DNA of 64,000 nucleotides from Roridomyces roridus (taxonomy: Eukaryota > Basidiomycota > Agaricomycetes > Agaricales > Mycenaceae). Positions 2,679 to 56,920 of the stretch are shown here, piece by piece (the first letter of the stretch is position 1; each line of letters opens with the position of its first letter). A program made the position numbers and the translations under genes. Below the pieces are notes generated by a model. That model worked only from the letters and a program-made list of their open reading frames with translations. It searched no databases and was not told the DNA's origin. Location: the NCBI GenBank assembly GCA_029378245.1, contig JARKIF010000010.1, positions 1,116,001 through 1,180,000 of the forward strand. The letters run 5' to 3'.

Positions 2679-3719
2679 TCAACGCTCCAACGCCAACTTG
2701 ACCAGCTGTCGAATGACATACTGGTAACCCACTCCTCCCGCTTCCCACAACCTCGGATACATCGACGTTGGCCGGAACCCAGGAATCGTATTCACCTCGT
2801 TCAGAAAAATCTCCCCGGTCCGCTCCTGGTAGAAAAAATCCACACGGGCGAATCCAGCGCAGTCGAGAATCTTGTACACCCGCAACGCCAGCTCTCGAAT
2901 GGAGTCGCACACTGCGGCCGACACATGGGCGGGTATGCGTATGCGTACTTCGCAGCCAACACCGTACTTGGCCTCATTGTCGTAAAAGTCCGAGCTGTGG
3001 ACGACCTCGCCGACGAGGCTCGCTTCCGGCGTTGCGTTTCCCAAGACGGCCACTTCCAGCTCGCGCACATGCACCACGCTCTCCTCGATGAGTGCACGGC
3101 GGCCGTAGCTCAGCGCCTTGGTGATGGCGAGCTCGAGCTCCGCCTCATCCCTGGCTTTCGACACGCCGATTGAAGAACCTAGGTTTGCGGGCTTGACGAA
3201 CCACGGTGCATCCAACCTCTCCTTGACCTCCCCCAAAATCCGCGCCGGGTCCGCGGCATACTCGTCCCGCGTAGTGGCCACGAAGCGCACCTGCGGGACG
3301 TGGTTGGCCCGCAGCACCTCCTTGGTCATGATCTTGTCCATACACACTGCACTAGCCAGCACACCGCAGCCGATGTACGGGATACCGGCGAGTTCAAGTA
3401 GCCCCTGCACCGTGCCGTCTTCACCAAACGGACCGTGCATAAGCGGGAAAACGACATCGTAGTCGGTTATCATTTCCGCTATTATAGCATGCAGCATGGG
3501 TAACCCACCGCCGGATTCTGCAGTCTGAGTTCCCGCATCCAAGGCCTTCCGACTTTCCTCGATAGTCAGCCAGAAGCCATTCCGAGCGACAACGAGCACG
3601 GCGGAGTCGATGTCCACCATAGTTTTCGTCGCCTCCAATACTGCGCGCGCGGAGGCGATCGAAACTTGGTGTTCTTCAGAACGTCCGCCGGCGAGGATGA
3701 GGAGGCGCGTTGGCTTCAT
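2679..3719 (-). CDS. D-alanine--D-alanine ligase-like ATP-grasp enzyme, bacterial type
   Basis: A single uninterrupted frame of 346 residues (355 if the upstream ATG at 3746 is used). The start at 3719 places MKPTRLLILAGGRSEEHQVS at the N-terminus, the usual Ddl opening. Visible signatures in order: HGPFGEDGTVQG (N-terminal Ddl domain), FVKPANLGSSIGVSK (ATP-grasp, with the substrate-loop serine), DNEAKYG (omega loop of D-Ala-D-Ala rather than D-Ala-D-lactate enzymes), FARVDFFY and EIFLNEVNTIPGF (metal and ATP site), then SMYPRLWEAGG. Bacterial Ddl enzymes make the D-Ala-D-Ala dipeptide for peptidoglycan, a polymer fungi lack. There is no intron, whereas the neighbouring genes are intron-rich. 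All catalytic motifs are present, so the product looks functional. The substrate in this organism is unknown; an ATP-grasp ligase with another amino acid substrate is possible. Transfer from a bacterium is inferred. Confidence 0.92.
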   Translation of the reverse strand: MKPTRLLILAGGRSEEHQVSIASARAVLEATKTMVDIDSAVLVVARNGFWLTIEESRKALDAGTQTAESGGGLPMLHAIIAEMITDYDVVFPLMHGPFGEDGTVQGLLELAGIPYIGCGVLASAVCMDKIMTKEVLRANHVPQVRFVATTRDEYAADPARILGEVKERLDAPWFVKPANLGSSIGVSKARDEAELELAITKALSYGRRALIEESVVHVRELEVAVLGNATPEASLVGEVVHSSDFYDNEAKYGVGCEVRIRIPAHVSAAVCDSIRELALRVYKILDCAGFARVDFFYQERTGEIFLNEVNTIPGFRPTSMYPRLWEAGGVGYQYVIRQLVKLALER

Positions 3720-4998: not shown

Positions 4999-6714
4999 TC
5001 AAGAGCAAGTCACCCCCGTTACCCCGATTGCATTCTGGCACAGAATTTCCGGCGTCTCGCCAGCTGGAATGCTGAGATTGAAATTCGTAAACGAGATATT
5101 GGTGCAATTGGCTGCGGCACTGCACTCCAGAGCGATAACTTTCTCGAGTCAAGCAAAGAATGCGAGGATAGAGAGATACGCACTTTCGTTGGTGAGCGAA
5201 GTCCCAGACCAATTTTCATAGTGCACGTCTTCAAAGATGTATTTCGAGGGAAGGTCACCTCTGCGGCTACAGTGAACGCAAGCTTGGAAAGAGGAATAAA
5301 GGCGTACGTGTGACCTCCATTCGTCTGTGAGATCGTGGTGGGCCGGTTAACCTGATTCAGTACAACGTTCTTGAGTGTAATGTTTTTAGCGTGGCCAGGA
5401 CCGGCGCCTCCGCCTGTTGGAGGTACACCTACGAGTTACGAGAATTCAGTTATTGCGTCAGTTTATTGCTTCAGTTATTCACCGTTGCTTGTGTCATCCC
5501 AAGACTTGAAGTAGACGCCGTTGTTCATGTTGGGTTGTATAGAGGCATTGATACGAGTCATCTGTTTGAAGATATAAGTTCGAAGCATCTCGTTGAAATC
5601 GACAGACTTGCCGTCAAGTCCTCCATGAAAACGTTTTCAACGATATCCGTCAAATTGAAATATTGCCCCAGAGAGCCGAAAGCGATGCCGTTTCCACCTC
5701 TGCACGTAACATTCCGAGCAAGGATATTGGTCGAATTCTGTGTGGTTTGAAAATCCGTTTGGATGAACACCAGGCGACTTACCCCTTTGATAGCAAGGCA
5801 ATCGTCCCCGCAAGTGATATCCCAATTGAGCAGAGATACATTGTCGCTCCGGTATGTGTCGATACCATCTGTATTCGGGACAATACTACAAAGTTGGATG
5901 AGAACGTTGCTTGAGAGAGAACAACAAGAAACGCACTTGGTCCCCGCAAACGCCGGATTCGCATTGCTCGCATTGCACTTCATCCCATCATAAACAACGC
6001 TCTGCGACTCGGCAACGCAGTTGCACCAAAACGGCTGCGCCTCGATAGCGAAATTCCGAATCGTACCCCGCGTGGCACGATAGACCGTCAACGAAATCGG
6101 ACGCCCATCCCCGTCTTCCCTGGTCTGATTCGTGAAAAAGTCCCACCAAGGCTGTCCATTTCCTTGAATCCCACCGGTGTTGTGCGCGTCGACGACGAAA
6201 TCGCTGCCTGTGATCACAAACCACGATGCTTGACTCTGGATGAACACAACCCGGTAGGTATTATTTGCGTTGAGCCAAAACTCAATGTCGGGAACGAACT
6301 AAATCCAAAGTAAGGCACCGAACAAGCAGGATAACCGCAAGCACGCACGCTAAGGAATCCATGCAAATCCACCGTCGCATCGACTAAATCCCAGGTCATT
6401 TTCCTAAATGTATTATCAGCAAAACCGCAGCAGAGAAGATCCACAGGAATGCTCACCGCGTGATGTTGAACACACCCTCCTGCAGCACCGTATGTCCGCC
6501 GTGTCCGCACTTGGCGATCGCATCCAAGACCTACCAACACCGTTATTCGTGGTTACCAGGTGTCACGAAACCAACCTACCTGGTCGGTGTCGTCAAGCCC
6601 AGCACCCCGCGGTGAGATCGTGCAAGTCAGGCCTTGAGCTGGATTGGCGGTGCCGGCCCAGCAAGAAGTAGCCGTGGCCAGACCAAAGAGTAATATTGAG
6701 AGTAAAGCGCGCAT
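4999..6714 (-). CDS. glycoside hydrolase family 28 (exo-polygalacturonase-like), secreted
   Basis: Ten exons read through in frame from the ATG at 6714 to the TGA at 5001-4999. The protein starts with a signal peptide (MRALLSILLFGLATATSCWA). GH28 motifs follow in order: NTDGID (two catalytic Asp region), CGDDCLAIKG (catalytic DD), GNGIAFGSLGQ (active-site His replaced by the Ala/Phe variant) and NGVYFKSW, which resembles the RIK/K substrate-binding region. GH28 enzymes cleave galacturonan in plant pectin outside the cell. The C-terminus ends ...GVTGVTCS, with cysteines typical of fungal members. Introns are 45-60 bases. One, after the residues MEDLT near 5620, uses a GC donor (GCAAGT) with an ACAG acceptor; splicing it is required to keep the frame. 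Missing or substituted GH28 residues could indicate specificity for another pectic polymer. Confidence 0.88.
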
Positions 6715-6965: not shown

Positions 6966-7852
6966 CTATGAAGAAAGCCTCAAAATACCCAGCGTGCGCC
7001 CCGAAATCCTCGACCCGCGATCAAAGTTCTTGAAGTAATGCTCGCCGTATTCGACGAATAAATCTCCCTGCACGGGCTCCTGCAAGCCTGCATCCACATC
7101 TGACACCTCCTCCCTGCCAGTGCTCACCCACCTCACGCAAGACCAGGGCCGATCGACGACCCAACGCCGCCACGAAGTAGGGTCATACCCTTCCGGAAAT
7201 GTCCCAATCACCTCCCGTGCGGCGCCAAACAGCTCCTCGAGGCTTGCACCCCCATCCGCGAGCTGTGCACCGATGCGAAGCTCCCTCAGTGCGCGCAGCG
7301 GGAGGAGGGCAGCGGGCAGGGCTGTGGACACCTCAGGATCAAGACCGCGTGGCGGTGGATGGAGGATGTGATGCATGACGGTCCCGGGGTGGAACGTATC
7401 CAAGTGGGCGTTTACACCCAGGAGGATAGGGCGACACGTAAAAGTCGCGGATTGCCGAAGAAATGAGCGTCGTACCCAGAAATTTCAGCCTCTGTATTGA
7501 ACGCTCTTGATAGCCGTCCGGCGAGAGCTCCGAGTGAGCGCTCATGCTGATGCGGCGGTATGCGAATGTGTCTTGGAAGGGGAAGATCTGTTGGGAGCGG
7601 AAGAAGAGGGGGAGGGCGACGAATCTCAGGCGCTTCGAAGCACGAGAGATAGAGTCGAGAGCAATTTCAGGGATCAAGTCCAAGATGTCAAGCCAGATTT
7701 CGGTGGGCAGCAGTATGTCGGATTCGGAAATCTTGGGTTTCTGGGGCTTCTACCACTGGAAGTTGGTCTCTGGCAAGGAATGGTTTGTTTCAAACACGTA
7801 CCTTCCAGAATGCGAAAATTGCGGAAGATTGCCGTGCCAGAGAGGGAGTCAT
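6966..7852 (-). pseudogene. F-box-like protein gene with a probable 1-base frameshift
   Basis: Exon 1 starts at the ATG at 7852 (MTPSLARQSS...) and splices over a GTACGT...CCCCAG intron into LLPTEIWLDILDLIPE, an F-box-like N-terminus (about residue 25). The frame then runs to RDFYVSPYPPG near 7418. The continuation VNAHLDTFHPGTVMHH... is in another frame, displaced by one T at about 7415, and runs to a stop at 6966. The total would be about 270 residues. A 160-base intron from the GTACGA donor near 7455 to the CACAG near 7330 would also restore a frame, but it is much longer than the other introns here and deletes natural-looking sequence. F-box proteins recruit substrates to SCF ubiquitin ligases; the target is unknown. 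It may be a recent pseudogene, or the extra base may be an assembly error. Confidence 0.55.
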
Positions 7853-8620: not shown

Positions 8621-8739
8621 AGATGTCGACTTCGTCTATGAAAGCTGTTAAACTTAATGACTCGACCCCAAAGGTTACAAAACGAGCACGGAGACCGCAG
8701 TCCAATATTAAAGCCCAGATTCTTGGACGCTCCTCTTCA

Positions 8740-9484
8740 ATGGCCAGCCCCTACATTCCCTCACAGTTCGAGAGACGGACGAGAGTTTACATTGCATGCG
8801 TCAACTGCCGCAGACGCAAAATCAGGGTATGTTATCCTCTCGCCTCCCCGGTCGAAAGCACTGACGTATGTGATTCTCCAGTGCAAGTCGGGGGACTCGG
8901 AGGAGAAACCCTGCGAGCGATGCGTCAAGAAAGGGCTTCGCTGCGAATACGTGCCGGTAGACGGGCGAGACAGCAACGTCAACGAAAGCACCTTGAATAC
9001 CTCCTTCGCCGCCCACCCCCAGATGTACCCTAGCCACCATGGCCACCACCGCGAGGCGGGTCCTCCGAGTGTCGACCCCCGCTCCAGGTACACCCAGCCG
9101 CAGCCGCAGCCCACAGGAAGCAGCAGTCATCGACGAAACCCCGTCGGGCCTGGAGCCATACACGCACTCCCCTCCGGACAAGGACCATACCCTGGCCACA
9201 CTGTACCGAGTCATGCACCGTCGAATCCGACTCCTCCAGGAGGAGCCTACTACCATCCGTCGTCGCACGGCCCCGAGATGAATATGGGCCCGTACCCCAC
9301 AGGATACGAGGGTCACCATGGCCAGCAGCAGCAGCTGGCATATCCCCCGTTTCAGTGGAGTGCTGCGCAGCCTCCGTACGTCCATTAAATCAGTGAATAT
9401 CATGATTTTTCAACTGATAATCTTTCCAGCCCGTGTATCTGCCCGCCGGGACCGTGCTTCTGCGGTGGACAACATGGATTTTAG
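8740..9484 (+). CDS. small Zn2Cys6 (fungal binuclear cluster) protein, paralogue A
   Basis: Three exons: 8740-8826, 8882-9375 and 9430-9484, giving 211 residues. The cluster sits at residues 20-46: CVNCRRRKIRC, then CERC, then GLRC, split by intron 1 directly before the third cysteine. The middle is rich in Pro, His, Gln, Tyr and Gly, and no fungal-specific regulatory domain is present. Exon 3 adds a cysteine tail, PCICPPGPCFCGG. I chose the ATG at 8740 because similarity to paralogue B in a shared frame starts there; upstream the two copies differ by frame-breaking indels. Comparison of exon 3 with copy B shows changes at third codon positions and one in-frame 3-base insertion, supporting translation. 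Zn2Cys6 proteins normally bind DNA in the nucleus as regulators. At this length it could be a short or truncated regulator. Confidence 0.8.
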
Positions 9485-16005: not shown

Positions 16006-16702
16006 ATGTGTTCACGGCGAACCAGAGTATACATGGCCTGTCTCAATTGCCGCAGGCGCAAAGTCAAGGTGAGTTCTTTTCATCCACCCTGAGTTCATTC
16101 AATGACGCTCTCAAGTGTGATTCGAAGGATACCGAGACCTTGCCTTGCGCAAGGTGCCTAAAAATGGGGCTTGTTTGCCGATTCATGTCCATCGAAGAGG
16201 AACAGCTGGCTCTGTCGGACATGAATGCCAATGAAATACCGGATTCCAATACCGTTCCTCTTCACGGGCCCTTCCCAACCTTGCAATCATATCCCTCCCA
16301 TGGGACAGTCTCTTCCAATAATCATCAGTTCCCGCAGGGGAGTGCGACATCGGACGCGTACCCTCCACCCAGGTTCAGGCATATTCAACCACGACCTGAG
16401 GCTAATTCCAGCACTTATCAGACGAGCCCCGAACTCGTCACCCTTACACCGCTCTTTGATAGCGGCACCTATTCAAGGGCGACAGGCGGAGGGACCCACC
16501 ATCCGTTGCCTCAATATTTGACCTCTTTTCACTACACCCCGGCGTCTCTCCCTCAACAACCGGCGGATCCTTTCATTCCGTGGCCAGTGCCCCATTCTCA
16601 ACCAGTGTACGTCTATCCTGTGTGTTGTTTTGGGGTCGCGTTAAATTAGCTTATAGTGCATGCATTTATTGCCAGCCAGGATCGTGCTCTTGTGATAGAT
16701 AA
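16006..16702 (+). CDS. small Zn2Cys6 protein, paralogue C
   Basis: Three exons: 16006-16068, 16116-16606 and 16657-16702, giving 199 residues. The N-terminus MCSRRTRVYMACLNCRRRKVK is followed after intron 1 by C...CARC...GLVC, completing the cluster. As in copies A and B, intron 1 falls directly before the third cysteine. The middle is Pro/His/Tyr-rich. The last exon gives ACIYCQPGSCSC, an equivalent of the cysteine tail in A and B, although the donor region differs. A leader of about 400 bases (15585-16000, with FQCPPCESS in one frame) is shared with the relic at 57.1-57.55 kb. It is likely a nuclear regulator; targets are unknown. Confidence 0.75.
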
Positions 16703-18909: not shown

Positions 18910-19397
18910 CCCTCATACCGCTCATACCTCCCCCCGACATATCCTTTCCATACGCCTCGGCGTCCCTCCCCCACTACTTGGATTCTCGTAATTGAAGATC
19001 CACTCATACCTCAAGCGTCACGTCGTTGAATCGCGACATTAAACAAGCGCCAATCTTTGGTCGAACTATTTTGATAGACAGTCGCTGTGCTACGGGAAAC
19101 GTTGAGTCCGTCCCCGCACAATAGCAGACGTTGGCGTTCGGGTGGCAATCTTCGGAGAGTACCCTCGCGCAGATACCGGGAGAGTCGTAGAAGGCCCGGG
19201 TCTGTTCTATCGGCAAGCGTTCCGACCGAGAAACCCACCACCGGCTTCGTGCCGCTCCTACCCAAGCCGCGACGGCGTTTCGCGCACCATCATCCTCCTC
19301 TTCCGGCACCTCTAGCCGTGAAGCCCGTTCCGTAGCGGACCAACTCTTGGCCGCTTCCGCCACCACCCACCACACCTTCCATACCACCGCCCCTGCC

Positions 19398-20513
19398 ATG
19401 TCCCATCACGGCAGCCCCATCCCCTATGACCAGCCTCAGGCTGGTTACTCGTACCCTCCCCAACAAATCTACCCCTCCCGCCCTCCTACCCGTTCTCCCC
19501 CTCGCCCCCTTCCCACACGACCCGACTCACAACCCCCCGCCCAGCCTGGCCTGACTGAGTTACTTCAGGCCCTCCCCCCACGCCCGGCACCAGCAAGGAT
19601 GACGCTGGCCCGGCTTCCCCCGCCGTTTGACGGCAATGACAAATCCAAGTGGGAAACTTGGATCGATAGTGTCATGACTTACCTCATGGCCTACGAACAC
19701 GACTTTGGTACGGATCACCGACGTATCTTCTTCGTGCTCTCGTTGCTGGGCGACGAGAAGAGTACTGCGTGCCCGGCCTCGAACTGGTCACGCAACTGGA
19801 AGGCGAAGCATTTTCGCCTTGATCAACCCCGTCCCTCCTTTGCGGAGTTCTTGACGGAGTTGGAGTCGACGTTCGCGGATCAGAACGTCAAGGAGACGGC
19901 GCTATTGCGCCTGATGAACACTCGGCAGGGAACGTCCACCCTGGCCGACTTCCTCCAGTCGTTCGAGTTGAACGCGGAGCAGGTGGGCTACACGCCCGGA
20001 AACGTGCTGCATGACACATTCCTGTGTCAAGCATTGGAAATCCTGGTCTCGGACCAGGTACGCAAACAGCTGTATGCTGGAGGCGTCGAGATCCCGGGAA
20101 CCTACCCCGGATTGAAAAGCCGGTTGATGACCATCAACGGCATCATTGAGCGCGGGAAGCTCATCAACTCTCGCTGGGGAGCGGGAGGTGGAATGTTTTG
20201 GACGCCGGCGCAGCAGCAGCCGCCGCCCAAATTCCCCAAGGCCACGACACTGGTGCCGCCGCCTCAACCCCAGGGGACGGCCCCCCATTTGGCGACCCGG
20301 GTCACTCCCGGAAACCCAGCGCCGATGGATGTGGATCGAACGCGGCAGGCCGCATTCAAGTGTTATAATTGTGGCAAGGAGGGCCACATGAAGCGGGAGT
20401 GCCCGGAGCCTCCCAAAAAGAAGTTTAATATCCGGTCGATCAAGACCGAGGACTACACGCAGGAGGACCTGCAGGCTCTCGCGAGCATACTCCGCGAGAA
20501 GGGTTTTTGTTAG
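19398..20513 (+). CDS. gag: Gag (capsid and zinc-knuckle nucleocapsid) of the Ty3 element
   Basis: 371 residues from the ATG at 19398. The N-terminal 70 residues are Pro-rich. A capsid-like helical region follows (PPPFDGNDKSKWETWIDSVM, FAEFLTELESTFAD, LADFLQSFELNAEQVGY). A CCHC zinc knuckle, CYNCGKEGHMKREC, lies near residue 323. The stop TAG at 20511-20513 directly follows a -1 slippery heptamer. Gag binds and packages the element RNA in cytoplasmic particles. Confidence 0.95.
   Translation: MSHHGSPIPYDQPQAGYSYPPQQIYPSRPPTRSPPRPLPTRPDSQPPAQPGLTELLQALPPRPAPARMTLARLPPPFDGNDKSKWETWIDSVMTYLMAYEHDFGTDHRRIFFVLSLLGDEKSTACPASNWSRNWKAKHFRLDQPRPSFAEFLTELESTFADQNVKETALLRLMNTRQGTSTLADFLQSFELNAEQVGYTPGNVLHDTFLCQALEILVSDQVRKQLYAGGVEIPGTYPGLKSRLMTINGIIERGKLINSRWGAGGGMFWTPAQQQPPPKFPKATTLVPPPQPQGTAPHLATRVTPGNPAPMDVDRTRQAAFKCYNCGKEGHMKRECPEPPKKKFNIRSIKTEDYTQEDLQALASILREKGFC
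20501..20507 (+). promoter_or_regulatory. -1 ribosomal frameshift heptamer GGGTTTT at gag end
   Basis: In the gag frame the codons are AAG GGT TTT TGT TAG, so G GGT TTT fits X XXY YYZ exactly. A one-base backward slip enters the frame that is open from 20507 onward. This matches the -1 frameshifting described for some fungal Ty3/gypsy elements. Confidence 0.8.
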
Positions 20514-23500
20514 GGCGCCCGGTCAAGGCCGAACCGGTGTGCCCTCCCGTATCTATTATCCATGGACAGTATACGCCGCTAGAGGCGGTAACGGACAGCA
20601 CGAACAATGTGCAAAATAGCGTACCTGTAAATTATGTAGAAAAAACTAGCCTACAACATAGTATACAAGAATTTCTTGTAGGCGAAGTAGAAAAGCCAAA
20701 AAAAATACGTATCTTGCAGAATGAGAACCGGAAACGTAATTTAAAGAATCGTCGCATGGATGAAGAAAACAAGCGCTGGAGCACTTTTAAAAAGGCCCCT
20801 GGAACCCAAACCAGTGATAAAAATAGTGAGAAGAAAAAGGGCGGCGATGCCGCGGAGGCTCAATCCTCGAAAGAGGAGGTAGCGCCTAAGCATACACGGG
20901 TGCCGTTCGGTCTCAGGAAGAAAGAGGCCGCACAATGGCTAGCACGCCGTGCTATGGGAGAGACGGAACAACGCTTAGCTCAGGAGCTGCGTGAGTTCCA
21001 ACGGCAACGTGTCCACCACGAGATGTTGGTGGCAGTCCAGCTGGAAGCACTGGACACGGGGAAAACACGTTCCATTCGTGCGTTGCTGGACAACGGGTGT
21101 ACCACCACATGCATGGACAGGGAGGGACTATGCCAAGGCCGAAGGCTTCGAGCTCAAAAAACTCGACATGCCGATTGTGGCCAGGAATGCCGACGGGACC
21201 GAGAACACCAAAGGCAAGATCACTCATTACGTAGAGATGATCATGTCTATCGGCCCGCATGTCGAAAGACAAAAGTTCCTGATCACGGGCTTAGGCAAAG
21301 CACGTGTGTTTATTGGGTACGATTGGTTGTTTAAACACAACCCAGAGATCAACTGGCGGGACCAGATGATGAAGTTCAGCCGATGTCCGGCAGAATGTGG
21401 CATGACCGGACTGGAATCCGGAAAAGGTGTCACACGGGAGGAAGCGGTGGAAGAAGGCGAATCGATCCTATTGGTCGATTTCGCGCCTGTTGTGGAGCTG
21501 CAAAGCAAGGCGACGCAGGCACAGCAGATGGCCGAACAGGCTTCGGCAGAAAAGGAAAAATTGACGGAAGACAAGATCCCGGAGCAATACCGGGAGTACG
21601 TCAAAGTTTTCGCAAAAGAGTCCTTTGACTCATTGCCGGAAAAGCGGCCTTGGGATCATGCGATCGAATTAAAGCCCGGATCAAAGGCTGTCGATTGCAA
21701 GATCTATCCACTCTCGTTAGGCGAGCAAGAAAAGCTGAACGAGTTTCTTGAAGAGAATCTCAAGAGTGGACGGATCAGACCATCCAAGTCACCGATGGCT
21801 TCGGCATTCTTTTTTATTAAAAAGAAGGACGGGTCCCTTCGACCGGTACAGGATTACCGGAAGCTCAATGAGATGACGGTGAAGAACAAGTACCCGTTGC
21901 CTCTGATCTCGGAGCTGGTCAACAAACTCCGAGGAGCTAGATTCTTCTCCAAGCTTGACATACGTTGGGGTTACAACAATGTACGGATCAAGGAGGGAGA
22001 CGAGTGGAAAGCGGCTTTTCGGACCAATCGGGGATTGTTCGAGCCACTTGTGATGTTCTTTGGGTTGACAAATTCACCGGCCACGTTCCAAACCATGATG
22101 AACGACATTCTTCGGGATCTCATCAACGAGGGCCATGTGATTGTATACCTAGACGACATCTTAATTTACACAGACTCCCTGGAGGAGCATAGAAGGATTG
22201 TTTCACGCGTCCTGGAGACGTTAGAAAAGAATAAATTATTCTTGAAACCCGAGAAGTGTGAATTCGAGAAGACGGAGATCGAATATCTCGGGGTGATTAT
22301 TTCCCACAACTCCATGCGGATGGACCCGGTGAAAATCAAAGGGATCATGGAGTGGCCAATGCCAAAGAACGTCAAGCAAGTGCAGGCGTTCCTCGGCTTT
22401 GTTAACTTTTATCGGCGATTTGTCCGCGGCTTTGCCGACATTGCCAGGCCCCTCACTAAGCTGACGGGGAAGGTTGCGTGGTCCTGGGGACCGGAGCAAG
22501 AGAAGGCGATCAACAAGTTGAAGGAACGGATCGCGGAGGATGTCATCTTGGCATTGCCAACGGATGATGGGGAATATCGGCTTGAGGCCGATGCATCAGA
22601 CGGAGCGGTTGGAGCAGTGCTCAGCCAACTCCAAGAAGGAGTATGGAGGCCTGTCGCTTTCATGTCTCACGGCATGAGTGACACCGAGAGGAATTACGAG
22701 ATCTATGACAAGGAGATGCTCGCAATCATGCTTGCTCTTGATGAGTGGAGACAATTCCTACTCGGTGCAAGGCACACGTTCGAGGTTCTGACGGATCACA
22801 AGAACCTCCAATACTTCAAAAAGCCGCAGAAAATCAATCGTCGGCAGGCACGATGGATCATCGAGTTGTCGCAGTACGACTTCTCGTTACGGCACCGGCC
22901 CGGAGCTTTGAATAAGCAGGCCGATTTGTTATCCCGCAGGGCGGATCATGACCAGGGGAAGGAGGACAATCAGGAAGTTGTCCTGCTTAAGCCCGAATAT
23001 TTCCGAGCGCAGGAAATCACGCTCGAAGGCGTCGAGAAGGATCTCCTGGAAGAGATCCGAGCGGAACGCAAACGGGACGGCAGCGTGAGGTCTGCCTTAC
23101 TGAAAAAGCTCCCTAGATGGGAGGAGGAGGACGGCATTGTCTATTACAATGGCCTTATTTATGTTCCGCATAACACGGAACTTAGAAATAAAATTATTGG
23201 ACTCCATCACGATCCGGCGATCGTGGGACATCCCGGAGGGAACCGGACCCAGGAGCTCGTTGAACGAAACTACTGGTGGCCGAAGCTCGGCAACAATGTT
23301 TCCGAGTATGTAAAGTCGTGCGAAGCGTGTCAGAGGTCACGAGCTCTTCGGCACAAGCAGGGCAAGCTGAACCCGCACAAGATTGCGGAAGGTCCCTGGC
23401 AGATCATTTCGATGGACTTGATCGGGCCGCTGCCGATTAGCAACGGTCACAACGCGATTCAAGTCTGGGTGGACACCTTCAGCAAAATGATTCACGTGGA

Positions 23501-24743
23501 GCCCACAACCATGGAAATCACGGCTGAAGGAGTTGCGCGTTTGACACGCGACCGTGTGATTAGATATCACGGGGTACCTCGAAAGATCATCTCGGATCGG
23601 GATCCGAGATATGTAGGAGGCTTTATGCGGGAGCTCAATAAGATCCTGGGGATCGAAATGAACCCGAGTACGGCACACCATCCGATAACCGACGGGCAGA
23701 CGGAACGGATGAACCAGGAGATCGAGAAATATCTCCGAATATTTATAAATTATCATCAGACGGACTGGGCTGAGTGGCTCTCCCTGGCGGAGTTCTGTTA
23801 CAACGACAAGGCCAGTTCGGCAACGAAGGCCTCGCCGTTTTATTTAAATACCGGCTATCACCCTTGGAAAGGGATCGAGAATGCCGTGGAGACGAGGAAC
23901 GAGGCCGCCGAGGAGTTTGGCACGAAGATGAAGAAAATTCGTGATGAAGCCACGGCGGCATTAGAAAAAACACAAAAAACAATGGAAAAATCATATAATC
24001 TACGACGGCGACCAGCGCCAGTATTTAAAAAGGGAGACAAGGTCTGGATTGAGGCGACGAACATCCAGACAGATAGACCCTCGAAGAAGCTGGGAGATAG
24101 GAGGCTCGGACCGTACGAGGTCCTGGAGAAAGTCGGAGCGTCTTCCTATAGGTTGAAATTGCCGAGCACGGACAAGTCACATCCGGTGTTCAACGAGGCG
24201 ATTCTCACACCGTATACGGAACCGCCCGAGAATCGAAGGGAGAAACGGCCGCCGCCGAAAATCATATCCGGCGAGGAGGAATATGAGGTGGAGGAGATTC
24301 TGAAACACCGCAAGATGGGGCGCGGGTTTCAATATTTAATAAAGTGGAAGAACTATCCTATGGGAGAAAGGACGTGGGAACCATCGCGCAACTTGACGCA
24401 TGCAAAAAAGCTGTTGGACAAATATAACAGGGAACACAGCATTGATGTCAGGACACTACCCACGCTCCCGGCTGGATATTGGGACGGCGAATGCAAAAGA
24501 TTCGTCCCAAAGGAGGAGTCCCAACAATACTCAAAGAAGAAATTATTTATACCCGATGAAAATCGGTTTGTCGACATCGACGAGGACGTCGATCCTAGAG
24601 AGGGGGTAATGTCACGCGCTGACCTATTTGCGCACGTGACAACGCCAAACAAACCCGATATACATTGGCGCCGCACAGCGTTAAAGTCATGGGAACCCTG
24701 TCTCGATCGGATTGAAGAAGAAGCCGAGGAAGACATTATTTAA
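20507..24743 (+). pseudogene. pol: Pol polyprotein (protease, RT, RNase H, integrase, chromodomain) with a frame break
   Basis: The -1 frame from 20507 carries a basic linker and the protease start (RALLDNGCTTTCMDR near 21090). At about 21120-21128 the frame shifts by +1, and the rest reads openly to 24743: protease end (GLGKARVFIGYDWLF), RT (KLNEFLEENLKSGRIRPSKS, VPVQD-like RPVQDYRKLN, YLDDILIYT), RNase H (EADASDGAVGAVLSQ, LTDHKNLQYF), integrase zinc finger (HHDPAIVGHPGG, CEACQRS) and DDE core (SMDLIGPLP, ISDRDPRYVGG, DGQTERMNQE), then a chromodomain (EVEEILKHRKMGRGFQYLIKW). The break coincides with GGGAGGGA, consistent with a 4-base tandem duplication. The protease has DNG instead of the usual D(S/T)G. 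The last ~44 residues are encoded inside the right LTR. Confidence 0.9.
24597..24606 (+). promoter_or_regulatory. polypurine tract of the Ty3 element
   Basis: AGAGAGGGGG lies three bases before the right LTR, the normal place for plus-strand priming. It falls inside the pol reading frame. Confidence 0.8.
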
Positions 24744-56189: not shown

Positions 56190-56920
56190 CTAAAATCCAT
56201 GTTGTCCGCCACAGAAGCACGGTCCCGGCGGTGGGCAGATACACGGGCTGGGAACATTATCAGTTGAACAATCATGGTATTCCCTGACTTAATGGACGTA
56301 CAGAGGCTGCGCTGTCCCCCACTGAAACGGGGGATACGCCAGCTGCGGGCCATTGTGACCCTCGTATCCGGTGGGGTGCGCCCGGTTCATCTCAGAGCCG
56401 TACAACGACGGATGGTAGTAGGCTCCCCCTGTAGGAGTCAGATTCAACGGCGCCTGGGTGGGTATGTGGCCAGGGTATGATCCCTGCCCGGAGGGGAGTG
56501 CATGCATGTCAATGGCTCCGGGGCCGGGGGGGTTTTGTCGATGAGCCCTATTCTCTGTGGGCTGCGGTTGGGTGTACCTAGTGCGGGGGTCGACATCCAG
56601 AGGGGCAGCCTCGCGGTGGTGGCCAGGGTACATCTCGGGGTTGGCGGTGAAAGAACTCTCGGTGCTTTCGTGGATGTTCCTCTGCCGCTGTTCCTCCACC
56701 GACATGTATTCACAGCGAAGCCCTCTCTTGACGCATCGCTTGCAGGGGTTCTCCCCCGAGTCCCCCGATTTGCACTGTGGAATCATATACCTCAGTACTT
56801 GCTTTCGACCGACCAGGCAAGTGGACATCGTACCTTGATTCTGCGTCTGCGGCAGTTGACGCATGCCATGTAAACTCTCGTCCGTGGCTCGAACTGTGAG
56901 GGAATGTAGGGGCTGGCCAT
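56190..56920 (-). CDS. small Zn2Cys6 protein, paralogue B
   Basis: Exons 56920-56834, 56774-56302 and 56247-56190 give 205 residues. Exon 1 is the same length as in copy A (87 bases) and encodes MASPYIPSQFEPRTRVYMAC and VNCRRRRIK. Exon 2 completes the cluster (C...CKRC...GLRC) and is Pro/His/Tyr-rich (GAYYHPSLYGSEMN). Exon 3 gives PCICPPPGPCFCGGQHGF. Compared with copy A, the tail has synonymous differences and one in-frame codon insertion, which suggests the small cysteine tail is under selection. Expected to be a DNA-binding regulator; it follows the relic of a C-type copy on the same strand. Confidence 0.8.

Follow-up and report, generated by a model that had tools for sequence, protein, structure and literature searches.

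A bacterial-type D-Ala-D-Ala ligase in the mushroom Roridomyces roridus and its relatives, probably acquired by a single transfer

Introduction

The nuclear genome of the mushroom Roridomyces roridus (Agaricales, Mycenaceae) carries an intact, intronless gene for a D-Ala-D-Ala ligase (Ddl) of bacterial type, even though fungi have no peptidoglycan wall. It was probably acquired only once, from a bacterium, in a lineage ancestral to part of the Mycenaceae, where it would since have been retained as a cytosolic ATP-grasp enzyme. The gene lies in a stretch of 64 kb, the whole of which is denoted here as the window, within a contig of 2,115,068 bases in a 90.8-Mb assembly made of 501 contigs. An earlier note on this DNA, made from the sequence alone, had announced an intact bacterial-type Ddl in a mushroom genome. 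This was borne out, as the minus-strand frame runs from 3719 to 2679 over 346 codons, from ATG to TGA, without any internal stop, and its product retains all 15 core residues of E. coli DdlB. All four motifs singled out in the note (GPFGEDGTVQG, NLGSSIGVSK, NEAKY and EVNTIPGF) occur in the translation exactly as written. The coordinates of the features discussed are collected in Table 1.

Table 1. Coordinates of the ligase gene, its functional segments and neighbouring features in the window.
Feature	Position	Strand	Basis and remarks
Intronless D-Ala-D-Ala ligase (Ddl) gene, 346 aa	2679..3719	minus	ATG 3719-3717, TGA 2681-2679; translation, family matches, predicted model
H95 (DdlB H63) and GPFGEDGTVQG substrate-site motif, residues 90-118	3366..3452	minus	DdlB alignment
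Lid (omega) loop FYDNEAKYGVGCE, residues 245-257	2949..2987	minus	K251-Y252 (DdlB K215-Y216) kept, Y212 replaced by N248, one extra residue
Tract with 0 SNPs between the allelic contigs C2 and C12	1400..4376	n/a	Alignment; SNPs beyond both ends
GH28 galacturonidase gene, 10 exons and 9 introns	4999..6714	minus	Splicing; protein identical to P0192

Family Assignment of the Ligase

The protein matched the Pfam families Dala_Dala_lig_C (E 3.8e-63) and Dala_Dala_lig_N (E 8.1e-27), both beyond their cut-offs (213.1 bits against 24, and 94.6 against 34.6, respectively). It also exceeded the cut-offs of the NCBIfam models NF002528 (E 2.9e-114; 381.7 bits, cut-off 262) and TIGR01205 (323.4, cut-off 245.65), while NF002378 fell just below its own (240 against 243), as did the narrower equivalogs among 25 of the 47 matched models. 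A search of the PDB yielded 37 distinct matching sequences, headed by the Ddl from Thermus (1.1e-84).

Several other identities were considered and discarded. A Van-type ligase, joining D-Ala to D-Lac or to D-Ser, does not fit the scores of 222.3 for NF000206 (cut-off 550) and 222.9 for NF000207 (cut-off 520), and no Van model was above its cut-off among 25 of the 47 matched NCBIfam models. D-Lac ligases lack the lid tyrosine that is represented here by Y252, a residue that is present in the Roridomyces protein. Neither PADLOC nor PHROGs gave a match for Ddl at E<=0.001 that would suggest a phage-defence or phage gene, and one scan of viral contigs for a possible viral carrier produced 18 pattern matches, none of them a relative. 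As for a paralogue derived from a fungal ATP-grasp gene, a search of the genome with its own Ddl protein returned only the two alleles described below at E<=0.001. When PF07478 was used instead, eight matches rose above the 24-bit cut-off. The two Ddl alleles scored 214.7 bits, and the remaining six, with 24.3-39.4 bits, are read as other ATP-grasp genes.

Genomic Setting and Allelic Copies

The earlier note had described the gene as one intronless frame between genes full of introns. This holds for Ddl itself and for its neighbour at higher coordinates, a GH28 gene interrupted by nine introns, each of 45-54 bases; as for the neighbour at lower coordinates (about 0-2 kb), three of its frames matched no Pfam family. 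The spliced GH28 product is identical over 423 residues to the Roridomyces roridus protein P0192, and the next 15 GH28 matches all come from Mycena species (75-83%). In base composition, Ddl stands above its surroundings, with a G+C of 59.1% compared to 52.1% for the 64-kb window, and a GC3 of 70.9%, where GH28 has 59.9% and two further frames in the window reach 62.4% and 64.2%.

A second contig of the assembly (C12, 112,580 bases) carries a Ddl that is 100% identical, in the midst of aligned blocks showing 97.3-99.7% identity, and this copy is read as the other allele of the locus in the window (C2). The SNP-free tract around the gene is suggestive of a recently shared tract or of gene conversion. 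Since SNPs reappear on both sides of it, each of the allelic contigs holds Ddl within the same flanks. The earlier note had raised contamination, to be recognised by a gene not joined to the fungal flanks, and the two contigs, as far as sequence allows, speak for a gene that is joined to them. The alleles are identical over the whole tract, non-coding positions included, so no selection signal can be read from this pair. Immediately beyond, between 4400 and 5599, 71 SNPs are found in 1200 bases, compared to none over the approximately 3 kb around Ddl. Further on, the C12 allele appears to contain about 790 extra bases at window position 7416 (L009 8800-9589), as judged from a jump between aligned blocks.

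Relatives and Probable Origin

Among the 120 best of 7,996 scored proteins, the relatives of Ddl comprised those of M. venus (the closest, at 65%), M. sanguinolenta (two), M. epipterygia, Lactarius quietus, M. latifolia (two) and M. amicta, mixed with environmental proteins. M. chlorophos was added by a profile search made with ten rows of the group. Presented initially as an oddity of one genome, the gene is indeed found in Roridomyces, but it is common, by the names of the records, to at least seven species of Mycenaceae. The nearest named bacterium within the same 120 best of 7,996 was a Myxococcota metagenome-assembled genome (MAG), at 54%. Outside the fungal rows it is environmental and bacterial Ddl, and not fungal ATP-grasp proteins, that are nearest.

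A quick tree of 150 rows placed Roridomyces together with 13 others, eight of them named fungal rows and the other five unnamed (SH-aLRT 98). A second tree, of 77 rows, was calculated under a mixture model, with a root that serves for drawing only and bootstrap values that, according to a warning of the program, were not fully settled. It recovered a fungal clade of 12 rows, nine of them named or from Roridomyces and the other three unnamed, with a bootstrap and SH-aLRT of 100/98; within it Roridomyces paired with M. venus (100/83). Three environmental rows (P0012-P0014) were sister to the clade (93/96), and it was surrounded by environmental and Myxococcota rows, and then by a group with Deinococcota and Casimicrobiaceae, several of the deep forks outside the fungal clade being weak (under 65). 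The end branch of the Roridomyces protein, at 0.69, was the longest in the clade. The fungal clade thus appears nested in sequences that are bacterial or, as in the case of P0012-P0014, presumably so. These three rows, together with P0017 and P0121, are metagenome relatives lying just outside the fungal clade; how old the transfer is taken to be depends in part on whether they belong to bacteria or to fungi.

The proposal of a transfer from a bacterium is consequently well supported, given that the nearest non-fungal sequences are environmental or bacterial Ddl and that the tree nests the fungal clade among them. The simplest reading, and that which fits best, would be a single bacterium-to-fungus transfer, received by an ancestor shared by some of the Mycenaceae and followed by losses. 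A search of genome contigs with the M. venus Ddl gave 156 relatives, of which the best 80 were all at or below 54% identity; among 398 genomes from the phylum of G001, four matches reached E<=1e-100, the best of them (53%) being G001 itself. As the best candidates reach only 53-54%, no donor is named; the nearest named relatives are Myxococcota MAGs.

One row deserves a separate mention. P0008, on a 226-kb contig of Lactarius quietus, comes from another order, yet its Ddl nests inside the Mycena rows and shares 86% identity with one of the M. sanguinolenta proteins, pointing either to a fungus-to-fungus transfer or to a mixed sample.

Active Site, Lid Loop and Predicted Fold

The residues of the Roridomyces protein were compared at 27 positions with those of E. 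coli DdlB (K-12 record), whose catalytic and binding roles we take to be as generally assigned. Matches were found at 19 of the 27, including 15 of the 15 counted as core. Seven of the eight differing positions depart from DdlB in the majority, or the whole, of the remaining aligned Ddl too, which leaves Y212 of the DdlB lid loop as the sole differing position that most aligned rows keep. In alignment A4 this position is a Tyr in 29 of the 30 non-fungal rows, and becomes Asn in Roridomyces, Leu in M. amicta and Phe in M. chlorophos, the three most divergent fungal rows. The extra residue that follows the Lys-Tyr pair is shared by Roridomyces and M. epipterygia, and the other rows are without it.

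The check was then extended to 16 DdlB positions (the 15 core ones and Y212) in 15 rows of the fungal clade. The 15 core positions were unchanged in 14 of these rows; in the remaining one (P0033, a protein short at its start) the position of E15 is missing and the rest of the core is kept. This conservation extends over a considerable divergence, as the Ddl proteins from Roridomyces and M. chlorophos share 51% identity. Departures were also counted at those columns in which the 30 non-fungal rows reach 90% conservation; for these rows, leave-one-out gave a median of 2 and a range of 0-12. Roridomyces showed 7 departures, M. venus 3, L. quietus 3 and M. epipterygia 2, whereas M. amicta and M. 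chlorophos, with 17 and 21, were the only ones exceeding the non-fungal range. The latter two (P0022 and P0143, respectively) form a fast branch in which the motif HGKGGED and altered NLGSS motifs are found, and possibly constitute a subfamily with altered specificity.

An AlphaFold2 model of the Roridomyces protein, built with 36 aligned rows, reached a mean pLDDT of 90.3 and a pTM of 0.90. Its top structural match in the PDB was the Thermus thermophilus Ddl with ATP and D-Ala-D-Ala (E 4.4e-41), and the 50 best Foldseek matches were all Ddl, one of them being a D-Ala:D-Lac ligase.

Proposed Activity and Pathway Context

That the core site was kept while identity dropped to 51% argues for a working enzyme. 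The earlier note had called the copy apparently functional; what stands of this is the conservation of the core residues and the resemblance of the model to the Thermus Ddl, and catalysis itself is what these features make probable. D-Ala is its likely substrate, although we hold this somewhat less firmly, and any one particular role for the product outside peptidoglycan is doubtful. By analogy with the family, E16, H95 and the S182 loop would hold a first D-Ala, whose carboxylate would be phosphorylated by ATP. A second one would be bound by R292, G314 and S319, and its amino group would then attack to give D-Ala-D-Ala, with Mg bound by D294, E308 and N310, and with the lid closed by K251-Y252. 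The D-Ala-D-Ala formed, or a near D-amino-acid dipeptide, would most likely enter fungal metabolism, where it might act as a sink for D-Ala released from bacterial walls or made by an enzyme of the threonine-aldolase type, or else be used as a building block. The loss of the lid Tyr, combined with the longest end branch of the clade, implies that specificity may have moved or constraint relaxed; the enzyme would thus have been kept, but its fit to the substrate may be shifting.

The remainder of the pathway was searched for in the genome in six frames, exon by exon, a procedure that can miss genes split by introns. No match was found to Mur_ligase_M (PF08245), Ala_racemase_C (PF00842), Ala_racemase_N (PF01168), Peptidase_M15 or Peptidase_M55, and no D-Ala-D-Ala dipeptidase was seen either. 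Fungi usually have Ala_racemase_N proteins, and should have distant members of Mur_ligase_M, so that the failure to see these makes the pathway negatives weak. If they hold, the lack of a Mur ligase would leave D-Ala-D-Ala without a wall precursor to which it could be joined. Pieces of a GH25 lysozyme were detected at one locus of the genome, and pieces of Beta_elim_lyase, a family to which threonine aldolases and certain alanine racemases of fungi belong, were seen at one good locus and at a weak one below the cut-off; in both families the internal stops may represent introns or damage. No metabolite cluster was recognised by eye around Ddl in the 64-kb window.

Alternative Explanations

The bacterial type of the gene, its lack of introns and its elevated G+C and GC3 are what would be expected if the assembly had been contaminated by a bacterium. 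This is nevertheless very unlikely, because two allelic contigs carry Ddl in the same flanks, with SNPs on both sides and with the nine-intron GH28 gene of Roridomyces roridus adjacent to it, the fungal clade spans seven named species of Mycenaceae, one of them with the gene on a 6.7-Mb contig, and the closest row of all (among the 120 best of 7,996) is a fungal one. The gene might instead be a decaying relic devoid of function, as its long end branch and patchy occurrence could suggest: 18 named Mycena taxa with GH28 are absent from the Ddl matches listed, a weak sign because these are the best 120 of each search and M. chlorophos already ranked low. The frame, however, is free of stops in both alleles, and the core residues persist down to 51% identity, which makes a relic improbable.

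A third possibility is that the fungal enzyme changed its substrate, so that it would join D-amino acids other than D-Ala, or attach D-Ala to a different acceptor, in making a secondary metabolite. The replacement of the Y212 position in the three most divergent fungal rows, and the altered HGPFGED and NLGSS motifs of M. amicta and M. chlorophos with their many departures, point in this direction. Yet the core, including DdlB K215, Y216, R255 and S281, is intact, the departures of the Roridomyces protein stay within the non-fungal range, the D-Ala:D-Lac and D-Ala:D-Ser models score far below their cut-offs, and no metabolite cluster was recognised by eye nearby; a change of substrate is therefore conceivable and rather doubtful. 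The ligase could also render a service to endohyphal bacteria, with the fungus making wall precursor for a symbiont. Mealybugs make wall precursor for their symbionts. The movement of ddl into three species of ants (PMC13320244) lends this idea some plausibility, but neither a Mur ligase nor a bacterial alanine racemase was found in the genome, weak as these negatives are, and such a service is a slimmer prospect still than a relic. A single gain from a bacterium, followed by retention as a cytosolic enzyme, is thus the reading that we prefer. A further, tentative idea is that some bonnet mushrooms make free D-Ala-D-Ala, or another D-dipeptide, as a metabolite of their own, with the lid loop retuned after the transfer. 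If so, the dipeptide may serve in interactions with the surrounding bacteria, as a sink for wall alanine, as a building block for D-peptides or as a bait for wall-binding molecules.

Comparison with Known Ligases and Transfers

With the bacterial Ddl enzymes (NF002528 and TIGR01205; T. thermophilus 6u1c and kin) the Roridomyces protein shares its domains, length, predicted fold, core residues and the Lys-Tyr dyad of the lid. It differs from them in being encoded by a fungal nuclear genome in which the above searches brought up no other step of the pathway, in the change from Tyr to Asn in the lid and in one extra loop residue. Among eukaryotes, a bacterial Ddl was reportedly described in bdelloid rotifers in 2008 and said to be active in vitro, the host being in that case an animal.

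In fungi, a Dala_Dala ligase that is 45% identical to Bacteroidetes was transferred at the base of the Sordariaceae, the family of Neurospora and Sordaria, according to PMC5169069, which also describes a fungus-to-fungus transfer into Colletotrichum. That case also concerns a gene with a bacterial Ddl domain in a fungus, but it belongs to the Ascomycota and involves another donor phylum; it is likened to ours by its description, and the passages on it name no mushroom. A D-alanine-D-alanine ligase is likewise listed among the genes moved from bacteria into Batrachochytrium dendrobatidis, with a table value of 39 that is taken as the percentage of identity to bacteria (PMC5005798); the host there is a chytrid, and the comparison is again by description. 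An Aspergillus orthologue of D-alanine-D-alanine ligase is named in a table row of PMC5816093. Finally, ddl2 of three Formicoxenini ants, which is closest to that of Sodalis and is expressed, is another ddl whose eukaryotic host makes no peptidoglycan itself, although the donor was enterobacterial and the host is an animal (PMC13320244).

No Ddl from Mycena or any other mushroom is reported among the open-licence papers listed, as judged from titles and the beginnings of abstracts. The main text of one survey (PMC11708051) mentions neither Mycena nor D-alanine, and the mushroom family may be among the 20,093 transferred genes that it covers. A transfer of this type is thus known in kind, and the mushroom Ddl family seems, as far as could be seen, not to have been described before. 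It shows clearly how an enzyme of wall synthesis has been retained by organisms that lack such a wall, and several genomes of the group have been sequenced. Considered together with the Sordariaceae, the chytrid and the ants, it suggests that Ddl may have been useful outside peptidoglycan more than once.

Other Features in the Window

Inspection by eye of the remainder of the window disclosed a retrotransposon on the plus strand (19347-24743) whose open frames are long, one being gag-like (19347-20513) and including a zinc knuckle, the other a Ty3-like pol frame (20991-24743) whose end resembles a chromodomain. Three further frames, at 8657-9388 (plus), 16008-16649 (plus) and 56289-56864 (minus), look alike by eye, with a zinc-cluster motif of the CxxCxxxGLxC type and tails rich in Pro, His and Tyr, and would be either a gene family of local extent or copies of a dispersed repeat.
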